This document shows positions 27,147 through 36,510 of a stretch of DNA of 45,778 nt, one piece after another (the stretch's first letter is position 1; each line of letters opens with the position of its first letter). Origin of the DNA: Bacteroidetes bacterium ADurb.Bin145 (GTDB lineage Bacteria > Bacteroidota > Bacteroidia > Bacteroidales > VadinHA17). The stretch lies in assembly GCA_002070505.1 (NCBI GenBank), contig MWDJ01000026.1, forward strand, positions 1-45,778, in the 5' to 3' direction. The position numbers and the translations under genes were made by a program. The notes below the pieces were generated by a model, which worked only from the letters and a program-made list of their open reading frames with translations, was not told the origin of the DNA and did not search any database.

Positions 27147-27197
27147 TTGTAACAAAAACGTAACCGGCTAAAAGGTAATTATTAAGACATTAGTAAG
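27147..27197 (+). promoter_or_regulatory. Pho-box-like array of 11-bp-spaced repeats before pitA
   Basis: Five 7-mers start exactly 11 bp apart: TTGTAAC (27147), ACGTAAC (27158), TAAAAGG (27169), TATTAAG (27180), TAGTAAG (27191). Four of five have TAA at positions 4-6. The array lies 70-120 bases before the pitA start. A similar array with the same period, consensus and last unit lies upstream of the beta-helix lipoprotein (35666-35726). Seven-base repeats every 11 bp are the binding layout of PhoB/OmpR-type regulators. A weak -7 match (TAAATTGG) is at 27217-27224. Confidence 0.6.
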
Positions 27198-27266
27198 TAA
27201 TTTCGCGCTGAGATTATAAATTGGCATCAGTTACATATTAATAAAACAAACCCGCACGATTAAGGA

Positions 27267-28256
27267 ATGACATTTCTGGTTATAGTTATCACCCTGGTCC
27301 TGATCTTTGACTTCATTAACGGGTTCCATGATTCGGCTAATTCAATCGCCACAGTTGTATCGACAAAAGTTCTCTCGCCCTTTTCAGCGGTTGCATTAGC
27401 AGCAACTTTTAACTTTGTGGCTTTCCTCATTTTCCCTCTCAAAGTAGCACATACAATAGGAAAGGGTGTGATTGATCCTGATATCGTAACACTGAACCTT
27501 ATCATATCAGCAGTTTCAGCAGCTATTATCTGGAATTTGATCACCTGGTGGCTTGGACTTCCCTCCAGTTCATCGCATACTCTTGTCGGAGGTCTTGTAG
27601 GTGCAGCGATAGTAAGCAGCGGATTCAATTCAGTAATCTATGCAGGCGTTATCAAGATAGCTGTATTCATTGTTGTTGCTCCCTTGCTGGGAATGTTCAT
27701 GGCGTTTGTGATTTCAATAATAGTACTTCATATAGTAAAAAGGCATTCACCCTTTGTCGTTGACAAGCACTTCCGGAGACTGCAATTGCTTTCTGCATCA
27801 GCATTCAGCCTTGGACACGGCGGCAACGATGCCCAGAAATCAATGGGTATTATATGGGTTGCTCTTATTGCTACAGGATATGCGACAAAAGATACCCCAA
27901 TACACCTTTGGATAGTCCTTTCGTGTCACGCTGCAATAGCTTTGGGAACCCTTTTCGGCGGGTGGCGTATTGTTAAGACCATGGGGCAGAAAATAACGAA
28001 ACTCAAGCCATTCGAGGGATTCTGTGCTGAAACAGCAGGAGCCCTGACACTTTACGGGGCAACTGCATTTGGAATTCCCGTGAGCACAACACATACAATA
28101 ACAGGTTCAATAATCGGCGTTGGCGCAACAAAGAGAGCGTCGGCAGTTAAATGGGGAGTTACAACAAAGATTTTCTGGGCATGGATACTTACTATTCCGG
28201 TATCCGCTTTAATCGGGGCTGCAATATTCTGGTTTGTTCAATTAATAACCGGGTAA
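27267..28256 (+). CDS. pitA: Inorganic phosphate transporter, PitA family
   Basis: Cation-coupled phosphate permease of the inner membrane. 329 residues and about ten hydrophobic segments. The two inverted PD001131-type signatures are visible: FINGFHDSANSIATVVSTKVL near residue 12 and GHGGNDAQKSMGI near 185. The protein is shorter than E. coli PitA (about 500), like many Bacteroidota forms. Downstream and convergent, 5 bases away, lie the PhoR/PhoB-like genes. The repeat array upstream suggests control by that regulator. PitA proteins can also take up sulfate (CysP) in some bacteria, but the context favours phosphate. Confidence 0.9.
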   Translation: MTFLVIVITLVLIFDFINGFHDSANSIATVVSTKVLSPFSAVALAATFNFVAFLIFPLKVAHTIGKGVIDPDIVTLNLIISAVSAAIIWNLITWWLGLPSSSSHTLVGGLVGAAIVSSGFNSVIYAGVIKIAVFIVVAPLLGMFMAFVISIIVLHIVKRHSPFVVDKHFRRLQLLSASAFSLGHGGNDAQKSMGIIWVALIATGYATKDTPIHLWIVLSCHAAIALGTLFGGWRIVKTMGQKITKLKPFEGFCAETAGALTLYGATAFGIPVSTTHTITGSIIGVGATKRASAVKWGVTTKIFWAWILTIPVSALIGAAIFWFVQLITG

Positions 28257-28261
28257 TCAAA

Positions 28262-30028
28262 TTACTTCTTATGCTTAGGCAATGAGAAGAGGAATTCTGT
28301 TCCTCCTCCTGCTTTGTTTCTGACTATAATTTCTCCTTTATGGAGCAGAATTGCATTCTTTACTATTGAAAGCCCAAGACCAGTTCCCCCGCTTTTCCTT
28401 GACCGGCCGGAGTCAACCCGGTAAAAACGTTCAAATATACGTCCCATATGTTCCTCAGGAATTCCTACGCCATTATCGGAAAATGAAAAATAGTAGAATC
28501 TTTTATCCTGGTTATAAACAAATATCCTTATTAACGTATTCTCTCCTGCATAATTTATTGAATTCTCTACGAGATTCTGAAATACAGACAGAATAAGCGA
28601 TTTATTGCCACTTACAGTCACTTCATCTCCTAAGTCAGATTCTATTCTGATCTTCTTTTCTCTTATGGCTGATTTAAAATTCTCACCTACTTCTTTTATG
28701 ATCTTATTGATCTTTACTTTTTCAGGAAGGAATGAAGCGCCGGCTTCTTCAATCCTGTTAAGTATTGAAATATCATTTATAAGTTCCGTGAGTCTGTCTG
28801 TCTGTGCCATGGCTCTCGTCAGGAAATATTTCTGTTTCTTAGGTTCTATCTCGTTGTCATTCAGCATTGTTTCAATATAACCCTTAATTGAGGACACCGG
28901 CGTCTTGAGCTCATGAGCAATATTTGAAGTCATCTGCTGCTTTATAATCTTATTCTTTGAAATTCTTGTAATATCATTAAGAATGACCTCAAAGCTTTTA
29001 TCGTGAAAGATCACACACTGAACAGAAAAAAAACGTCCATCCTTACTGACCTGATATTCAAGTTTCGGAAGGTCAGCATCAGTAATGACAATCTCAGAAT
29101 TCTTATTGAGGAATTCGGTAATCTCACCAAATTCCGGTAATTCAAGGAAATTTGCCGGGAATATTTTGAGATCTCCTGTTATCATATTCATAAGCTTGAT
29201 GAAGTGATCATTACTGAAGTTAATTTCCTTCTCTTTTGAGAAAAACGCAACACCTTCATTAAGGGCATTAAGGTGATTTGATAGCTTTTCCTTCTCAATC
29301 GCAAGATCATTTTTCGCTTTCAACAGATTATTGTATATCCCGAGAATTTCCGATCCGATTATACCAAGCTCATTTTTAGGAAAATCTGAAATGAAAGGTT
29401 TATCACTTCTCAGGCTCAAAGCGAAATCTTTCAGCCGGGTGACTGATTCTCCAAAACGGTTGGTAACAAAAAGCAGTACTATTCCTATTAGTATAAAAAA
29501 AAGCAGGATAATGAAAAGGAATCGGAGGTTTGCTTTCAGGAAATTAACGACATTAACGTCATAGATCAGGGCAGCTCTCACGTAATACCTGCTGAATTTT
29601 CTGGAATAATAATAATACTCCTCCCTGGTTGTTCCTGATTTTCTTATTGCTGTTCCAAAATCTTCAGAGGACGACTGGATTATTTCCGGACGGTCCAGAT
29701 GGTTATCCATATTTTCATAATCATGTATAAAGCTGTCGTACAGCACTTTACCCTCACGATCGATTACAGATATCCTTAAGTTTGGATGCGGTAACAATTT
29801 GTTCAGCGAATCTATCTGCCTGTAATCATTGGTTATATAAAGAGAATTGATATTGATAAAGTTGTCGACAATACTTGTAATATTTGACAATTCATCATTT
29901 AAGGTCTCTGTCCTGTATTCTTTTTCTCGCCGGTACAGATAAGTTATTATCAGGAGAAGCACCAGGCAAAAGATAGCTGAATAGAAAAGCAGCAGTGTAT
30001 TTCTGAACTGGTTCTTTGAAAATGCCAT
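28262..30028 (-). CDS. phoR: Sensor histidine kinase, PhoR-like
   Basis: 588 residues. N-terminal transmembrane helix (about 11-31), a periplasmic sensing domain (32-168), second helix (169-189), HAMP-like region, a PAS-like domain (about 245-355), HisKA with phospho-acceptor His372 (SNIAHELKTPVSSIKGY) and a HATPase domain with NLVENSINYAG and FSDNGVGIPEEHMGRIFERFY. Architecture fits PhoR of Bacteroidota. It is translated after the response regulator gene, 15 bases away. That it senses phosphate state is inferred from PitA next door and the shared repeat arrays. Confidence 0.85.
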   Translation of the reverse strand: MAFSKNQFRNTLLLFYSAIFCLVLLLIITYLYRREKEYRTETLNDELSNITSIVDNFININSLYITNDYRQIDSLNKLLPHPNLRISVIDREGKVLYDSFIHDYENMDNHLDRPEIIQSSSEDFGTAIRKSGTTREEYYYYSRKFSRYYVRAALIYDVNVVNFLKANLRFLFIILLFFILIGIVLLFVTNRFGESVTRLKDFALSLRSDKPFISDFPKNELGIIGSEILGIYNNLLKAKNDLAIEKEKLSNHLNALNEGVAFFSKEKEINFSNDHFIKLMNMITGDLKIFPANFLELPEFGEITEFLNKNSEIVITDADLPKLEYQVSKDGRFFSVQCVIFHDKSFEVILNDITRISKNKIIKQQMTSNIAHELKTPVSSIKGYIETMLNDNEIEPKKQKYFLTRAMAQTDRLTELINDISILNRIEEAGASFLPEKVKINKIIKEVGENFKSAIREKKIRIESDLGDEVTVSGNKSLILSVFQNLVENSINYAGENTLIRIFVYNQDKRFYYFSFSDNGVGIPEEHMGRIFERFYRVDSGRSRKSGGTGLGLSIVKNAILLHKGEIIVRNKAGGGTEFLFSLPKHKK

Positions 30029-30043: not shown

Positions 30044-30730
30044 TCAGAATTCGAAGTAATAACCATAACCTGTCTTGTTTTTCAGACAGGATCCAAAAGT
30101 TCCAAGTTTGTTCCTCAGCCTTGTTATGTTGACATCAACAGTTCTTTCTGTTACTATCACATCATTTCCCCATACCATACTAAGAATATCATCCCTTGAG
30201 AATACCTTTCCCTGATTTTCAAGAAGGACCCTAAGTATTTCAAATTCTTTTTTGGTCAGTTCTACCTTCTCATCATTAATTATAAGTCTTTTTCTGGCAG
30301 TATCAATTTCCAGCTCTCCAAACCGGAGCTTTGCCTGGGGTTTGATTTTATCAGTTTTTGAACGTTTAAGAACAGCTTTAACTCTGGCTGTTAATTCATT
30401 AACAGAGAATGGTTTAGCTATGTAATCGTCAGCTCCCAGACTAAATCCGGTAAGGATATCATTTTCGGTGTCCTTTGCAGTTAGGAATATTATCGGAACA
30501 TTTACCTGCATTTCATTTCGTAGTTTGTCGGCCATTTTGAAACCTGACATGGCGCCCATCATTACATCAAGCAGGACAAGATCAAAATCACTGATATCTC
30601 TTTTCAGCGCCTCCTCAGCCGAGTGAGCTGTCTCTGTCTGATATCCGGCGTTTCCGAGATTGTACTGAAGGATCTCGCAAAGATCCTCCTCATCGTCGAC
30701 AATAAGTATTTTTTTTGTGCGGTTATCCAT
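30044..30730 (-). CDS. phoB: Response regulator, PhoB/OmpR family
   Basis: 228 residues. Receiver domain with acidic pocket Asp12-Asp13, phosphorylation site Asp55 (LVLLDVMMG), Thr84 and Lys106 (IAKPF). The C-terminal winged-helix domain is of OmpR/PhoB type (FGELEIDTARKRL, later VTERTVDVNITRLRNKLG). It probably binds the 11-bp-period arrays at 27147-27197 and 35666-35726. First gene of a two-gene transcript with the kinase. Identity as a phosphate regulator is likely from context, not proven by sequence. Confidence 0.87.
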   Translation of the reverse strand: MDNRTKKILIVDDEEDLCEILQYNLGNAGYQTETAHSAEEALKRDISDFDLVLLDVMMGAMSGFKMADKLRNEMQVNVPIIFLTAKDTENDILTGFSLGADDYIAKPFSVNELTARVKAVLKRSKTDKIKPQAKLRFGELEIDTARKRLIINDEKVELTKKEFEILRVLLENQGKVFSRDDILSMVWGNDVIVTERTVDVNITRLRNKLGTFGSCLKNKTGYGYYFEF

Positions 30731-30894: not shown

Positions 30895-33795
30895 CTAAAA
30901 CAAAGCATAGCTAAATTTCAGGTGGTATGTTATTCCCGGTTCAAGTTTTGTAAAGAACTGATCCGTGGGATTGAAAGATCTGAAAACAGACTCTCTTTTG
31001 TCATTCAGAAGGTTATCAATCTTTAGTCCGATCTGGGCTCTCTTTTCATTTCCGAAAGTTTTACTGAGGCTCAGGTTAAGACTATGAAAGGGCAGGGTAT
31101 AAATATCAGGACGATCTGCAATTCCTACGTACTGCAGGGTAGTGCCCTGTACATTATAATATAATCCGGCTTCAAGATCGGCCCAGAATCCCCTTTCACC
31201 TCCATTGTATGTTATGCCGCTGTTGATTATCCAGGGTGCCTGTCCGGCCATTTCACGATATTTCTCAATCGTCTGTCCTACGCGTGCATTTTCAAGTCTT
31301 GAATAATACTCTGTAAGACTTAATTCTATCCTTGATCTTGTGACCGAAATATTGGAGGTTAAATCAAAGTTGTTCAAAGCAACTGTAATTTCCCCCAGGT
31401 TCTGGCGGAGTTCAAGTTCTAAACCAAGAACCTGTCCGTTACCGACGTTCCTTGGCTGGAAACAACCGGTCTGGGTTGCATACTGGACTATTTCAATTGG
31501 ATTATGGAAATATTTATAAAATCCGCTGATTGAGATCAGCTGATTGTTTTTCCTGAATATTTCCCAGCGAAGATCAGCATTATGTATCTGTGAACTAACC
31601 AGATTACCATTCCAGTATTCTCTTCCGGCAATGTCATCAGCATCTCTGAACATTCCTCCTACAAAGGTACGGCCGCTGAGGGGATCAACGATCTCAGCGA
31701 ACGAGAGTTCCTTGAATGAAGGTCTGGCAATCGTTTTGGCATAAGACAAGCGGATATTCTGGTTGGAAGTAAGGCTGTAAATAAAGTTTACTGAAGGGAA
31801 GAACCCTGTTTCGTCAAGTAATTTAGTATTATCAAGGATTATCGTTCCCTGCTGGTTCTGACCAGTATATCGCTGCAGATAATTCTCGACTCTCAGTCCC
31901 GCAATTGTCCGTAGCCTTTTTGTAAGATTCATTTCAAGAGATAAATAGCCTGAACCGTTTGATGAATTTGCATTGAACTGGTTCGGATTTGAAGGGATAA
32001 ATCCTGGTTCATAAGTCGTTCCGTTCGTATAATCTGTTCCGTAGAGAGGCCAGAGGTTTTCACTCCTGAAAATCTCATCAGGATCACCTGTAAGTGGAAC
32101 GTTCCTTATGTTAAACATGAATTTTCTTATCATGAAATCACGCTCTTTGTAACCATATTGCCCACCGAAATTCAACCTTGCTTTTTCTCCTCTGAACATG
32201 AATCCTTTTGAGACATGAACTACTCCGATGAGATTTATCTCTGACAGGTTTCTCCATATCCTTTCAGGGAATCCTGATTCGGTATTGATGCGGTAGTCGT
32301 TGTTATCGGTGACATATCTGATGAACCGTGCATCGGGATCACTTATTGATGATATTGTCGGAGACAATTTCCAGGTGATATCCCATTTTGATGTATTGAA
32401 GGTGGTTCTTCCATCAATAAGAAGGTTTGTTAATGCACGTTCGCTGTATTCAAGATTGTGCTGAAAACCTGAAAAATTGCTTCCCTGATCAGAACCTGTG
32501 TAATCAAAAATCCCGGCTTTGGATTCACCATTCTGAAGATGCATGATATTAATACGGTATTTTGAATTCCTGGTTTTAACAGCAAAACCCGCAAGTCCGC
32601 TTAATAAGACACTTTTAACCCCGAAGTCACCCTTCTGGAATTCTCGTACTTCAAGATCCATGATATCCGGGTTACTTGAAAGTCCGTAACGGCCATATTC
32701 GGCATCTTTATAGAATTCATTATTGCTTTTATATGAAAACCCGAAATTATATCCGATTGTGATTTTTCTCACCGGTATTTGATTTCCGAATGAACCGGCA
32801 AAGCTGTAATCCATAAGGTTTGTCTGTTTCATTGCCGCCATTGCAGGATTAAAACCCTCAAGTATTTCCCTGTATCTCATCCCCTGTTCCCCTGAAGGAT
32901 TAGCGAGGACTGAAGCGAAGAAGGGAAGGTTTTCCGTTGCAGGTATTGCCCTTGTCCCATCATCAAAGCCCAGGAAATCTGTTTTACCTCCCTTATACGT
33001 CAGAAAATCACTTTTAAAATGAAAGTCCGGATTGTAACTCGAGCTTAGTGAAATATTGCCCTTCTTCTGATCAGGGAAATCCTTGATGGCTATATCAATG
33101 ACCCCTCCTGTAAAATCAGCCGGCAGTTCAGCACTGAATGATTTATGAACGATTATATTATCAATGAGATTAGTGGGGAAAATATCCATTTGCATTGTAT
33201 TTCTGTCCGGATCCAACCCGGGAATATCAACACCATTAAGGATAGTTTTTGTATATCTGTCACCAAGTCCACGTACGTAAACATATTTTCCACCTTCCAC
33301 AGATACCCCTGTTACGCGTTTCATTGAGGATGCAGCGTCGGAATCGCCCATTCTTTTAAAGCTTGTTGCTGAGATACCATCAGTAAGACTGGGTGAATTC
33401 ATCCTTATTGTTGTGATAGCACTTTCCGAGCTTCGGGAAGCGCTTGCCGTTATTGTTACCTCCGATAATCCTATTGTAGATTGTTTGAGCCTGATATTGT
33501 CGAGAAGAGTTACTTCTCCGGGTCTGACCCTTACATTGCTTATTGTCTGTGACTCATAGGAAATATATGAAATCTTAAGATTATATGTTCCCGGGTCTAT
33601 TGAAAGATTGAATTTCCCATCCAGGTCTGTCGTAATCCCTACAATAGTACCTTCAGCTACGATTGTAACACTTATAAGTGCTTCACCGTTTGATTCGTCG
33701 ACAACGGCACCTCTTATGATGCCTTTTTGCGCATTTAAACTGATTGAGATCAGAATAAACGCGATTAGTAGTGTTAAAAATCTGTAAAAGCGCAT
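30895..33795 (-). CDS. TonB-dependent outer-membrane receptor
   Basis: 966 residues. Signal peptide (1-22, ending LNAQ), a carboxypeptidase-regulatory-like domain (about 24-105), a plug domain (about 125-235, with VEGGKYVYVRGLGDRYTK) and a 22-strand-type barrel ending in KFSYALF. It imports an unknown ligand across the outer membrane. No SusD gene is adjacent; instead a beta-helix lipoprotein gene precedes it by 83 bases on the same strand, with a small hairpin between. The promoter of that pair has a Pho-box-like array, so phosphate-starvation import is a working idea. The ligand is not shown by sequence. Confidence 0.85.
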   Translation of the reverse strand: MRFYRFLTLLIAFILISISLNAQKGIIRGAVVDESNGEALISVTIVAEGTIVGITTDLDGKFNLSIDPGTYNLKISYISYESQTISNVRVRPGEVTLLDNIRLKQSTIGLSEVTITASASRSSESAITTIRMNSPSLTDGISATSFKRMGDSDAASSMKRVTGVSVEGGKYVYVRGLGDRYTKTILNGVDIPGLDPDRNTMQMDIFPTNLIDNIIVHKSFSAELPADFTGGVIDIAIKDFPDQKKGNISLSSSYNPDFHFKSDFLTYKGGKTDFLGFDDGTRAIPATENLPFFASVLANPSGEQGMRYREILEGFNPAMAAMKQTNLMDYSFAGSFGNQIPVRKITIGYNFGFSYKSNNEFYKDAEYGRYGLSSNPDIMDLEVREFQKGDFGVKSVLLSGLAGFAVKTRNSKYRINIMHLQNGESKAGIFDYTGSDQGSNFSGFQHNLEYSERALTNLLIDGRTTFNTSKWDITWKLSPTISSISDPDARFIRYVTDNNDYRINTESGFPERIWRNLSEINLIGVVHVSKGFMFRGEKARLNFGGQYGYKERDFMIRKFMFNIRNVPLTGDPDEIFRSENLWPLYGTDYTNGTTYEPGFIPSNPNQFNANSSNGSGYLSLEMNLTKRLRTIAGLRVENYLQRYTGQNQQGTIILDNTKLLDETGFFPSVNFIYSLTSNQNIRLSYAKTIARPSFKELSFAEIVDPLSGRTFVGGMFRDADDIAGREYWNGNLVSSQIHNADLRWEIFRKNNQLISISGFYKYFHNPIEIVQYATQTGCFQPRNVGNGQVLGLELELRQNLGEITVALNNFDLTSNISVTRSRIELSLTEYYSRLENARVGQTIEKYREMAGQAPWIINSGITYNGGERGFWADLEAGLYYNVQGTTLQYVGIADRPDIYTLPFHSLNLSLSKTFGNEKRAQIGLKIDNLLNDKRESVFRSFNPTDQFFTKLEPGITYHLKFSYALF

Positions 33796-33878: not shown

Positions 33879-35609
33879 TTAAAATCCATTCAGAGAACCT
33901 GAGACTGCAGTCCACGACCAACCTGTAAATGCGGATGCATCAGCTCCTACAGTGTTTGCACCTGCATTGACAGATATAGTAAATGCACTGCTGCCATCTT
34001 TAAAGAAATCGGTAAGCGTTGTTCCGGCAGGGATTGTTGCTTCCATATTACTGAATGTGCAATTATAATATGTCGGGACTGAATCAAAATCCTGACCTGC
34101 CTTAAGTCCGAAGAAATAAACCTTATCGATATCAACATACGAATCCGAGGCATTATTTGCATCATCAAGGTCAGCTATCCCCTGGGCATTGCCTGCATAA
34201 ACAGTCCCGTTTTTAATAGTGTGTTTAGCTACCATTGTTCCTTCCGGTCCGTCAAGCTCCAGGCACTCGTCACCGGGATTAATTATTATAAAATTGTCAA
34301 GTGTTCCGCCCCATGACTGATCAGTATCTATAGCATCGTCTCCTGTATTCCACACAACAACGTTCTTAACATTTACTGTTCCTCCGAACCATTCAATCCC
34401 GTCATCATCGTTCGATACAATCTCAATATTTTCAATAATAGTACCTGATCCTACGCCTCCAAGAGTAAGCCCGTTTATCTCATTACCTTCTCCGATATTC
34501 GCGCCACCGTGACGAATTGAGATGTATTTCAGGACACCTGAGTTGTCGGCAGGGTCAGTGCCACCGTAAAGCCCGTTAAGGTCGGAAGCAGGGATCCCTT
34601 CAATCTGCATAGCTTCAGCTTCGGCTGAAACCGGTGCTTTACCAAGGATCAGAAGACCTCCCCAGAGGCCGCTAATGTTTGGTTCGAGATTTGGACTTGC
34701 AACTTCTCCCGGAAGTATCTTATCGGCTACAGAAGTGAAAATTATTGGTGAATCCACTGTACCTTCAGCCATAAGTTTTCCGCCACGGGCGATCATCAGA
34801 GCCGTTGCATTTGCTTCAGATCCTTCTCTTCCTTTTATTATTACACCGGGCTGAATTGTCAGTGTAACTCCTGACACAACAGTAATGCGTCCTTCCAGTA
34901 TATATATCTTGCCTGTTTCCCAGGTTGTATTTGTTGTAATATTAGCAGTTACAGATGTTGTCGGGAATGGGAGTACGTTGACGACAGCTGTACCCTGTCC
35001 GGTTTTATTATTATTATCTGTTGTTGTTATAACTACTGATCCTGCTCCTGTTTCTCTTGCAGCAGTGTATGTGACTATAATATTCCCTGAGGTGGCTCCT
35101 GCAACACCGTCGGTCTTAATTACTGCTGTTCCTCCGGTTACAACAAGAGAAGAGGATTTATAACCACCCTCCGCAGTATATGGAAAAGTAATATCCACGG
35201 ATTTCAAGACTACTACCTCACTTGTCGCGGGATTCGTTATCTTAGGGGCACCTTCTTCAAAAATACTCAATACCGCTGTAGCTGACTGAGACTGACCTTC
35301 ATTATCAACTAATGTAAGGACGACTGATCCGGCACCTGTAACGGAGCCTGCTGTAAAAGTCACAACAATGTTACCGTTTTTGGAACCGGCTGATGGAGCT
35401 GTCTTAACAGTTGCAGTTCCTCCTGTTGCCGTGAGTGAAGAGGATTTGTATCCTCCCTCTGCATTGAAACCGAATGACAGATCTACCGATTTACTTACTT
35501 CAACATTGGTGCTTCCAGGGGTAGTAATAACAGGTATTTCATATTCTTTTTTACAACCTGTTATACTTATCAGGGCACCCAGGACCAAAAAAATCATAAT
35601 TTTTTTCAT
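33879..35609 (-). CDS. Surface lipoprotein with Ig-like repeats and beta-helix domain
   Basis: 576 residues. Lipoprotein signal with Cys19 (SITGCKKEYE). Two related beta-sandwich repeats follow (about 35-117 and 129-213), each with AEGGYKSSSL and TGAGSVV. Then a right-handed beta-helix-like region (about 225-520: GVTLTIQPGVIIKG, LWGGLLILGKAPV, SNDDDGIEWFGGTVNVK) and a short C-terminal tail. Acidic-rich loops (DDDG, GDECLELDG) could bind metal or phosphate-linked ligands, which is speculation. It is the first gene of a pair with the TonB receptor and is preceded by a -7 box and six repeats. No exact function known to me. Confidence 0.75.
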   Translation of the reverse strand: MKKIMIFLVLGALISITGCKKEYEIPVITTPGSTNVEVSKSVDLSFGFNAEGGYKSSSLTATGGTATVKTAPSAGSKNGNIVVTFTAGSVTGAGSVVLTLVDNEGQSQSATAVLSIFEEGAPKITNPATSEVVVLKSVDITFPYTAEGGYKSSSLVVTGGTAVIKTDGVAGATSGNIIVTYTAARETGAGSVVITTTDNNNKTGQGTAVVNVLPFPTTSVTANITTNTTWETGKIYILEGRITVVSGVTLTIQPGVIIKGREGSEANATALMIARGGKLMAEGTVDSPIIFTSVADKILPGEVASPNLEPNISGLWGGLLILGKAPVSAEAEAMQIEGIPASDLNGLYGGTDPADNSGVLKYISIRHGGANIGEGNEINGLTLGGVGSGTIIENIEIVSNDDDGIEWFGGTVNVKNVVVWNTGDDAIDTDQSWGGTLDNFIIINPGDECLELDGPEGTMVAKHTIKNGTVYAGNAQGIADLDDANNASDSYVDIDKVYFFGLKAGQDFDSVPTYYNCTFSNMEATIPAGTTLTDFFKDGSSAFTISVNAGANTVGADASAFTGWSWTAVSGSLNGF

Positions 35610-35654: not shown

Positions 35655-35665
35655 GGTTCACATTG

Positions 35666-35726
35666 TTACTAAATGATTAAGGGTAGATTACGGTTTGGTT
35701 ACAAAACAATTACAACATATTTACAA
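35666..35726 (-). promoter_or_regulatory. Pho-box-like array of six 11-bp-spaced repeats
   Basis: Read on the minus strand from 35726: TTGTAA, TTGTAA, TTGTAA, CCGTAA, CCTTAA, TAGTAA. All six units start exactly 11 bp apart (plus-strand positions 35721, 35710, 35699, 35688, 35677, 35666) and all carry TAA at positions 4-6. The array ends 11 bases before the -7 box of the lipoprotein-TonB operon. The unit and period match the array before pitA. This is the layout of PhoB/OmpR-type operators, and the PhoB-like gene is 5 kb away. Confidence 0.7.
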
Positions 35727-35823: not shown

Positions 35824-36510
35824 ATGATAAGGACCTTTCTTTTTACCGGCTTGCTGTTAAACGTTACCTTTACTTTGGTATCACAGAGTGTTTTAAATCC
35901 AAATTACGGGTTGAAGAGTCACGAGACGCTTGTCATTAACCGGATAGATGCAGCATCAGAATCAACGACTATCCATCTGACGATTGAAAACCGGATCGAA
36001 GGAGGGACGTTTTGTGCGGACAGGAATATATACATAGTTCATCCGGACGGGACCAGGGCGAAACTTATCTCATCTGAAGGTATCCCGGTCTGCCCGGAAA
36101 GCCATAGATTCACATCAATAGGAGAGAAGCTGGATTTCACCCTTACATTTCCGCCTATTAAGCTTAGCACAGACTGGATTGACCTAATAGAAGACTGCAG
36201 GGATAACTGCTTTTATTTTTACGGGATAACCCTCGACAGTGATCTTAACAAAAAGATAGATGAATTATTCAGATTTGCTGAAAACGGGGAATCATTTAAA
36301 GCGCTTGACGGGTTTATTGAACTTCTCAGGGAAACAGACAGCAGGAACAATGGAATTGAAGGCTTGTTATATGTTAATATAATTAAGCTGGCAGGTGACT
36401 CTGGCAATCCAGAACAAGCAGCGGAATTTTATAAAAGGCTCAGATCATCAGGTGTCCCGGGTCTTAAGCATTACCTTCAATACCTTAACGACCAGGGGAT
36501 AAAATATTAG
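35824..36510 (+). CDS. Secreted protein of unknown function
   Basis: 228 residues. N-terminal signal (about 1-20, FLFTGLLLNVTFTLVSQ). The first 130 residues are beta-rich with conserved-looking Cys pairs (FCADRN, VCPES, CRDNC) and no motif I recognise. The C-terminal 90 are helical and resemble a TPR-like pair (LFRFAENGESFKALDGFIELL, then NPEQAAEFYKRLRS). It is divergent from the Pho-box promoter, so it may share the regulatory region, but no clear -7 box precedes it. Function unknown. Confidence 0.7.
   Translation: MIRTFLFTGLLLNVTFTLVSQSVLNPNYGLKSHETLVINRIDAASESTTIHLTIENRIEGGTFCADRNIYIVHPDGTRAKLISSEGIPVCPESHRFTSIGEKLDFTLTFPPIKLSTDWIDLIEDCRDNCFYFYGITLDSDLNKKIDELFRFAENGESFKALDGFIELLRETDSRNNGIEGLLYVNIIKLAGDSGNPEQAAEFYKRLRSSGVPGLKHYLQYLNDQGIKY

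Follow-up and report, generated by a model that had tools for sequence, protein, structure and literature searches.

The window, a stretch of 45,778 nucleotides from Bacteroidetes bacterium ADurb.Bin145, carries on its minus strand a tandem array (35661-35726) that is very probably the Pho box of this lineage and a candidate binding site for the response regulator PhoB. A first-pass annotation had proposed a Pho-box equivalent for Bacteroidota at this place, and the conservation of the array before orthologous genes, the recognition of PhoB by a curated model and a held-out test on pst operons all suggest that it was right in substance. Read directly from 35726 down to 35661, the array consists of six units of 11 bp each (TTGTAAATATG, TTGTAATTGTT, TTGTAACCAAA, CCGTAATCTAC, CCTTAATCATT and TAGTAACAATG, in this order), which follow one another with an exact 11-bp period, and TAA occupies positions 4-6 in every one of them; this reading and the simulations described below bear out the array as first annotated. 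Directly 3′ of the sixth unit come TGAACC and then TACTTTTG (35654-35647, minus strand), a -7 promoter box with which the end of the array is in register. The five regular putative Pho-box units (35672-35726) start 80, 69, 58, 47 and 36 bp before the end of this box, and the last four of them form the core that is kept in the family. The sixth unit, TAGTAACAATG (35661-35671), lies in the -33 region; it is degenerate in the family orthologues and poorly kept across the family, and its place holds a CTTTACA-type unit in most Flavobacterium promoters. No TTG was found about 17-23 bp before TACTTTTG by direct reading, in agreement with the earlier description of a -7 box lacking a -33 TTG; both the naming of the box and the judgement on the TTG rely on a -33/-7 promoter consensus that we take as given.

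The array is far beyond chance. Nowhere else in the window does TAA recur four or more times in a row at a fixed period, whichever period between 5 and 30 is taken, and among 300 simulated order-2 Markov windows none had more than four in a row at a period of 11 (a length reached in 2 windows) or more than five at periods 5-30 (reached in 3 windows). When the 214-bp intergenic stretch was shuffled 20,000 times, the longest TAA run was four, in 6 shuffles. The array thus shows the tandem direct repeats with an 11-bp period that mark a Pho box, and it has the fixed place of one, just upstream of the -10/-7 box and replacing the -35/-33 element, with the promoter boxes recognised by sequence only.

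Downstream of the array lies an operon on the minus strand, which begins with a lipoprotein gene without a Pfam match (33879-35609) and continues with genes for a TonB-dependent receptor (30895-33795), a PhoB response regulator (30044-30730) and a PhoR sensor kinase (28262-30028). A Pit-type phosphate transporter gene of the PHO4 family (27267-28256, plus strand) converges on the operon. The lipoprotein might be a beta-helix protein, by analogy with the IPR011050 label of F. johnsoniae FII. Both regulators pass the NCBIfam cut-offs for Bacteroidota (332 bits against a cut-off of 270 for PhoB with NF053854, and 619 against 500 for PhoR with NF053855), so that what had been noted as a PhoB-like gene nearby is confirmed by a curated model. 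The window PhoB shares R193, T194, D196, R201 and R203 with E. coli PhoB, and N replaces H198 and T replaces R200; we presume all of these residues to be DNA contacts of the E. coli protein. As a label for PhoB elsewhere NF053854 was rejected, its cut-off being passed among 198 genomes of the phylum only in the window's own, and PhoB in other genomes was therefore labelled by neighbourhood and BLAST. At the closest orthologue locus (L194), the order lipoprotein-receptor-PhoB-PhoR also stands behind an array, and elsewhere among the relatives phoBR is found close to pit, phoU or porin-pst genes. The window's own genome (a draft, 92.5% complete) holds three PHO4-family genes, and no PstC over the cut-off was found in it, although PhoBR is present; a weak PstC match at 1768-2256 of the window was judged by inspection of its neighbours to be a permease of the molybdate/tungstate type. 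Divergent to the operon, a gene at 35824-36510 (plus strand) encodes a 228-aa protein without a Pfam or NCBIfam match, relatives of which (50-63% identity) occur in phoBR/receptor neighbourhoods at five loci (L181, L187, L194, L198 and L200).

A search of 59 genomes of the family yielded eight near-full-length orthologues of the lipoprotein besides the window's own (59-74% identity), and the 11-bp array stands at the same distance from the -7 box before all eight, three of which (L035, L036 and L038) come from one genus and are nearly identical. Each of these arrays has three or four in-phase units with a strict TAA, plus variants such as TTGTTATC, and the four units conserved in the family approximate YTGTAAY, WTGTAAY, YCTTAAT and CTTTAACC, the last of which begins 28-29 bp upstream of TAnnTTTG; the window array is longer by one unit upstream and one in the spacer. 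Two neighbouring phases to the -7 box hold 33 of the 36 TAAY units in the nine family promoters, window included. We also looked at 21 more distant lipoprotein homologues. Fourteen lie close behind a gene on the same strand, so that their own upstream DNA is no test, and one (L040) gave no gene. Among the six that seem to lead a transcription unit, the array is clear in two (L052 and L053), borderline and barely above 40 shuffles in two (L047 and L051), and absent in two (L041 and L042).

Relatives of the lipoprotein occur in 19 of 20 genomes of the class. In F. johnsoniae CI04, which stands in for strain UW101 (93% in a GldM piece; UW101 is missing from the 80 loci sampled), the genes for a porin, PhoR and PhoB are divergent from those for the receptor and the lipoprotein (L250 and L401), as in Fjoh_0542-0546. 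Our sample of the Flavobacterium group comprised 30 genomes, namely 20 of Flavobacterium, one [Flexibacter] sp. and nine of one further genus, whose GldM (checked in one genome) is very similar to the GldM in the PDB; they were drawn from those 80 loci and from the 198 genomes of the phylum. A single receptor match was obtained in each, and the array precedes the receptor gene in the same register in all 30, with four or five in-register TAAY units in 28 and two units in the other 2, and at most three in other phases. In the 27 promoters that were counted by phase (three of the 30, without TTTG in the allowed range, were dropped), the array phase holds 104 of 194 TAAY and two other phases hold 49 and 24. 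Outside Flavobacterium, two to six units precede TTTG at eight loci (L241, L242, L243, L245, L246, L247, L248 and L249), and the two phases account for 30 of the 40 TAAY counted in ten class promoters, in three of which (L240, L247 and L248) the script probably mis-set the -7 box. The annotation had made its case depend on conservation upstream of orthologous operons, and this is what we find in the eight orthologues and in the 30 Flavobacterium-group genomes, though not before all more distant homologues.

The held-out test concerned pst operons. pstC was found in 117 of 198 genomes of the order, and 60 upstream stretches were taken from the best-scoring among the matches listed, not at random, 59 of which were long enough. 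They were scored with a matrix of 68 units trained only on lipoprotein/receptor promoters. With a bonus for TTTG in register, the best score was at least 14 on the pst strand in 39 of the 59, compared with 6 on the opposite strand and 3 in shuffled DNA. With the bonus left out and the count made by promoter, a score of at least 10 was reached by 35 of 54 pst promoters and by 7 of 69 other genes (Fisher P 1.6e-10), and a score of at least 14 by 31 and 6; in the other five stretches no operon could be assigned. Among those seven other genes, at least three (L465, L488 and L496) appear to belong to a pst operon and to have been overlooked by the script, judging from their size, strand and place. 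The remaining 19 pst promoters scored under 10, perhaps as a result of a promoter outside the stretch, a differing motif or differing control. In the clearest case (L467) the units read TTGTAACAATT ACTTAACACCA TCTTAATATTT TAGTAACAAAT TAACTTTATCTTTG. We inspected 29 pstC loci, and in three (L422, L431 and L441) pstC comes right after a divergent gene, with four units in register in all of them; a fourth candidate of this kind, L420, was discarded when a longer stretch (L448) showed same-strand genes before pstC. The array is thus found upstream of pst and other phosphate genes, as expected of a Pho box. At two loci (L477 and L480), strong arrays lie on the strand opposite pst, before genes of 740 aa and 271 aa, which are possible further Pho genes.

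These counts also bear on the idea that the phased 11-bp TAA steps work as a promoter element of the curved-DNA or UP-like kind, without a dedicated regulator. Such an element would fit the AT-rich, helically phased sequence adjoining the -7 box, but the units are oriented and specific, keep their register to the -7 box over families and are far commoner at pst genes than at other genes of the same stretches, and we regard this explanation as extremely improbable.

The Pho box probably takes a shorter form before Pit genes. Upstream of the Pit gene of the window lies a putative two-unit Pho site, TTGTAACAAAA ACGTAACCGGC (27147-27168, plus strand), followed by a degenerate -7 box, TAATTTCG (27198-27205, plus strand), which reads TAATTTTG in four relatives. 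Four of five units at 27147-27197 are in register and only the first two, TTGTAACAAAA ACGTAAC, are conserved, so the five-unit reading of this site was rejected and the total of "eleven units" in the first-pass annotation was an overcount. The two-unit site (WTGTAACAAAAACKTAAC) precedes 7 of 11 further Pit genes, the second copy of the window's own genome among the seven, and is absent from the other 4; at eleven other PHO4 loci (L161-L171), which lie outside this count, no convincing site was found. Seven of the eight sites, counting that of the window, have a -7-like box whose end lies 46-49 bp downstream of the start of the second unit, and such a box is absent at the site L156.

A model using sequence only (R1), built from nine promoters and run with strict filters on the 59 family genomes, placed 13 of its best 20 non-training matches (E below 0.02) before lipoprotein/receptor or pst operons: two before fragments of a trained orthologue, nine before operons with a second type of lipoprotein (38-45% identity, with the receptor in front) and two before pst operons. 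Nine of the 12 genomes with the second lipoprotein type have an R1 match, including G054, where the operon falls on two contigs; G051 has a weak match (E 0.47), and none was found at this lipoprotein in G037 and G058. The other seven of the best 20, three of them seen only as ORF maps, were not tied to phosphate, and one (L191) precedes a GH95 gene. In the window's own genome R1 gave three matches with E below 1, namely the array, the Pit site and one near a PemK-like gene (C27:42690, E 0.07) that was taken as chance. A scan of the same genome with a two-unit pattern was too weak to use (16+21 matches versus 14+12 in the reversed control).

With the family matrix the scores of Flavobacterium promoters are poor, so a second model (R2) was made together with a unit matrix of broader scope. 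R2 was run on ten genomes and 22 non-training matches were inspected, most with weak E values (0.0006-0.29). Five of the 22 precede a DUF47-Pit operon (in three genomes, with Pfam run on one of them) or, in the cluster of F. johnsoniae CI04, the porin and the lipoprotein, and one (L398) precedes an unlinked lipoprotein of the same kind as that cluster's, which we would guess is perhaps FIII. Ten are intergenic without a known phosphate role, before genes for GH1 glycosidases, a helicase that is DEAD-box-like by eye, an XRE regulator and others, and six lie inside genes. The array-like sites before GH1 glycosidase genes (L399, L405 and L413; GH1 assigned by Pfam on L399 and L413) come from two Flavobacterium genomes and one genome of another family (G184). 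In three Flavobacterium genomes (L396, L407 and L408), a similar intergenic 11-bp array lies about 1.2 kb before a 594-aa gene, by eye an aspartyl-tRNA synthetase, and is followed by hairpin-like sequence; it is possibly the promoter of a small RNA.

The array can be compared with four known systems. The E. coli Pho-box unit is CTGTCAT, which the array units, reading TTGTAAY or CTTAAY, fail to match. The E. coli box, its unit printed as CTGTACTA, is described as 8-bp direct repeats that recur every 11 bp, with 3-bp linkers between them, and lie 10 bp ahead of the -10 box (PMC1906773); direct repeats with this period and a PhoB-family regulator are common to both systems, whereas the units here are TTGTAAY or CTTAACA, are often more numerous and face the Bacteroidota -7 box TAnnTTTG. 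The cyanobacterial SphR box, at least three CTTAACCT repeats with 3-bp linkers (PMC1906773), has the sequence nearest to our CTTTAACC and CTTAACA units, but belongs to another phylum and promoter type, and its description in the available portion of that source gives no -7-box register. The DAP-seq motif of Riemerella anatipestifer PhoP, whose top conserved letters are TTTAACA (583 peaks; PMC9603813), resembles our units and comes from a host in the Flavobacteriales; as far as the accessible text goes, it was published without an 11-bp array or a phosphate-gene code. Within the literature covered, CTTAACCT and TTTAACA are the nearest published sequences. In F. johnsoniae, PhoR and PhoB of the PhoBR/PUSIV cluster (Fjoh_0541-0549) adjoin a receptor and the FII lipoprotein and are induced by low phosphate (PMC8115612); the cluster shares these four kinds of gene with the window operon, in which, unlike there, the lipoprotein leads and phoBR follows on the same strand, and the main text of that paper contains neither "motif" nor "pho box" and leaves the operator undescribed. 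B. fragilis PhoB is reported to bind a 512-bp pstC promoter fragment, with the site unmapped (PMC3547664), and putative Pho boxes are marked before plcP genes of marine bacteria including Flavobacteria (PMC4796936), a consensus for them not being met in the part of that paper at hand. A search of the open-access full-text literature found no Bacteroidota Pho-box consensus, in line with the annotation's view that none was established.

OmpR-family regulators generally bind such spaced repeats, and most genomes hold many of them, with at least 13 candidates. Another member of this family, not PhoB, could therefore bind the repeats, phosphate genes being merely among its targets, and the Riemerella motif has indeed been likened to that of ArcA (PMC9603813). 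However, the sites cluster at pst, Pit, porin and phoBR-linked operons, and genes of these kinds are reported to respond to PhoB or to phosphate shortage in B. fragilis and F. johnsoniae, which makes a regulator other than PhoB very unlikely.

Our best reading is that the Bacteroidota Pho box consists of tandem TTGTAAY- or CTTAACA-like units, each starting 24/25 + 11k bp upstream of the -7 box end. The sequences show 11-bp direct repeats whose core is TTGTAAY or CTTAAY in the Bacteroidales family; in Flavobacterium and others the core is xxTAACA. The arrays usually have three to six clear units and stand before lipoprotein/receptor and porin-pst operons, a good many of which adjoin phoBR, and Pit genes carry a two-unit form. 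Under low phosphate, PhoR would phosphorylate PhoB, dimers of which may bind head to tail along the repeats, the promoter-nearest unit substituting for the missing -33 contact and RNA polymerase being recruited at the -7 box. The operon promoter may also raise PhoBR itself, because phoB and phoR come next after the receptor gene on its strand, at intervals of 164 and 15 bp. A bound protein covering the -33 region could also block polymerase, and the array might then be a PhoB operator that represses the operon rather than activating it. Against this, Fjoh_0545/0546 of the related F. johnsoniae operon are reported to rise by 8.0 and 9.9 log2 upon phosphate depletion (PMC8115612), and a promoter without a -33 element would need an activator; we consider repression very unlikely. 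Whether activation by PhoB follows one code throughout the class Bacteroidia is a bolder proposal, to which we give slightly less than even weight: PhoB would act on two to seven tandem 11-bp units in the register of 24/25 + 11k bp from the -7 box end, and the mode of control would depend on how many units there are and how far they reach, arrays that extend to the -33 region giving strong induction of pst and lipoprotein/receptor operons and two more distant units serving Pit.

Bacteroidota are major bacteria of gut, soil and ocean, and their phosphate response has been measured, whereas its operator was not found in print. Since relatives carry the same kind of pattern before phosphate-uptake genes, phosphate-controlled genes could be predicted from sequence, and a consensus with a fixed promoter register would make the Pho regulon readable in this way class-wide. 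It would also link PhoB to lipoproteins and receptors of the low-phosphate response that are still uncharacterised, and would bear on how a response regulator works at promoters that have no -35 element.
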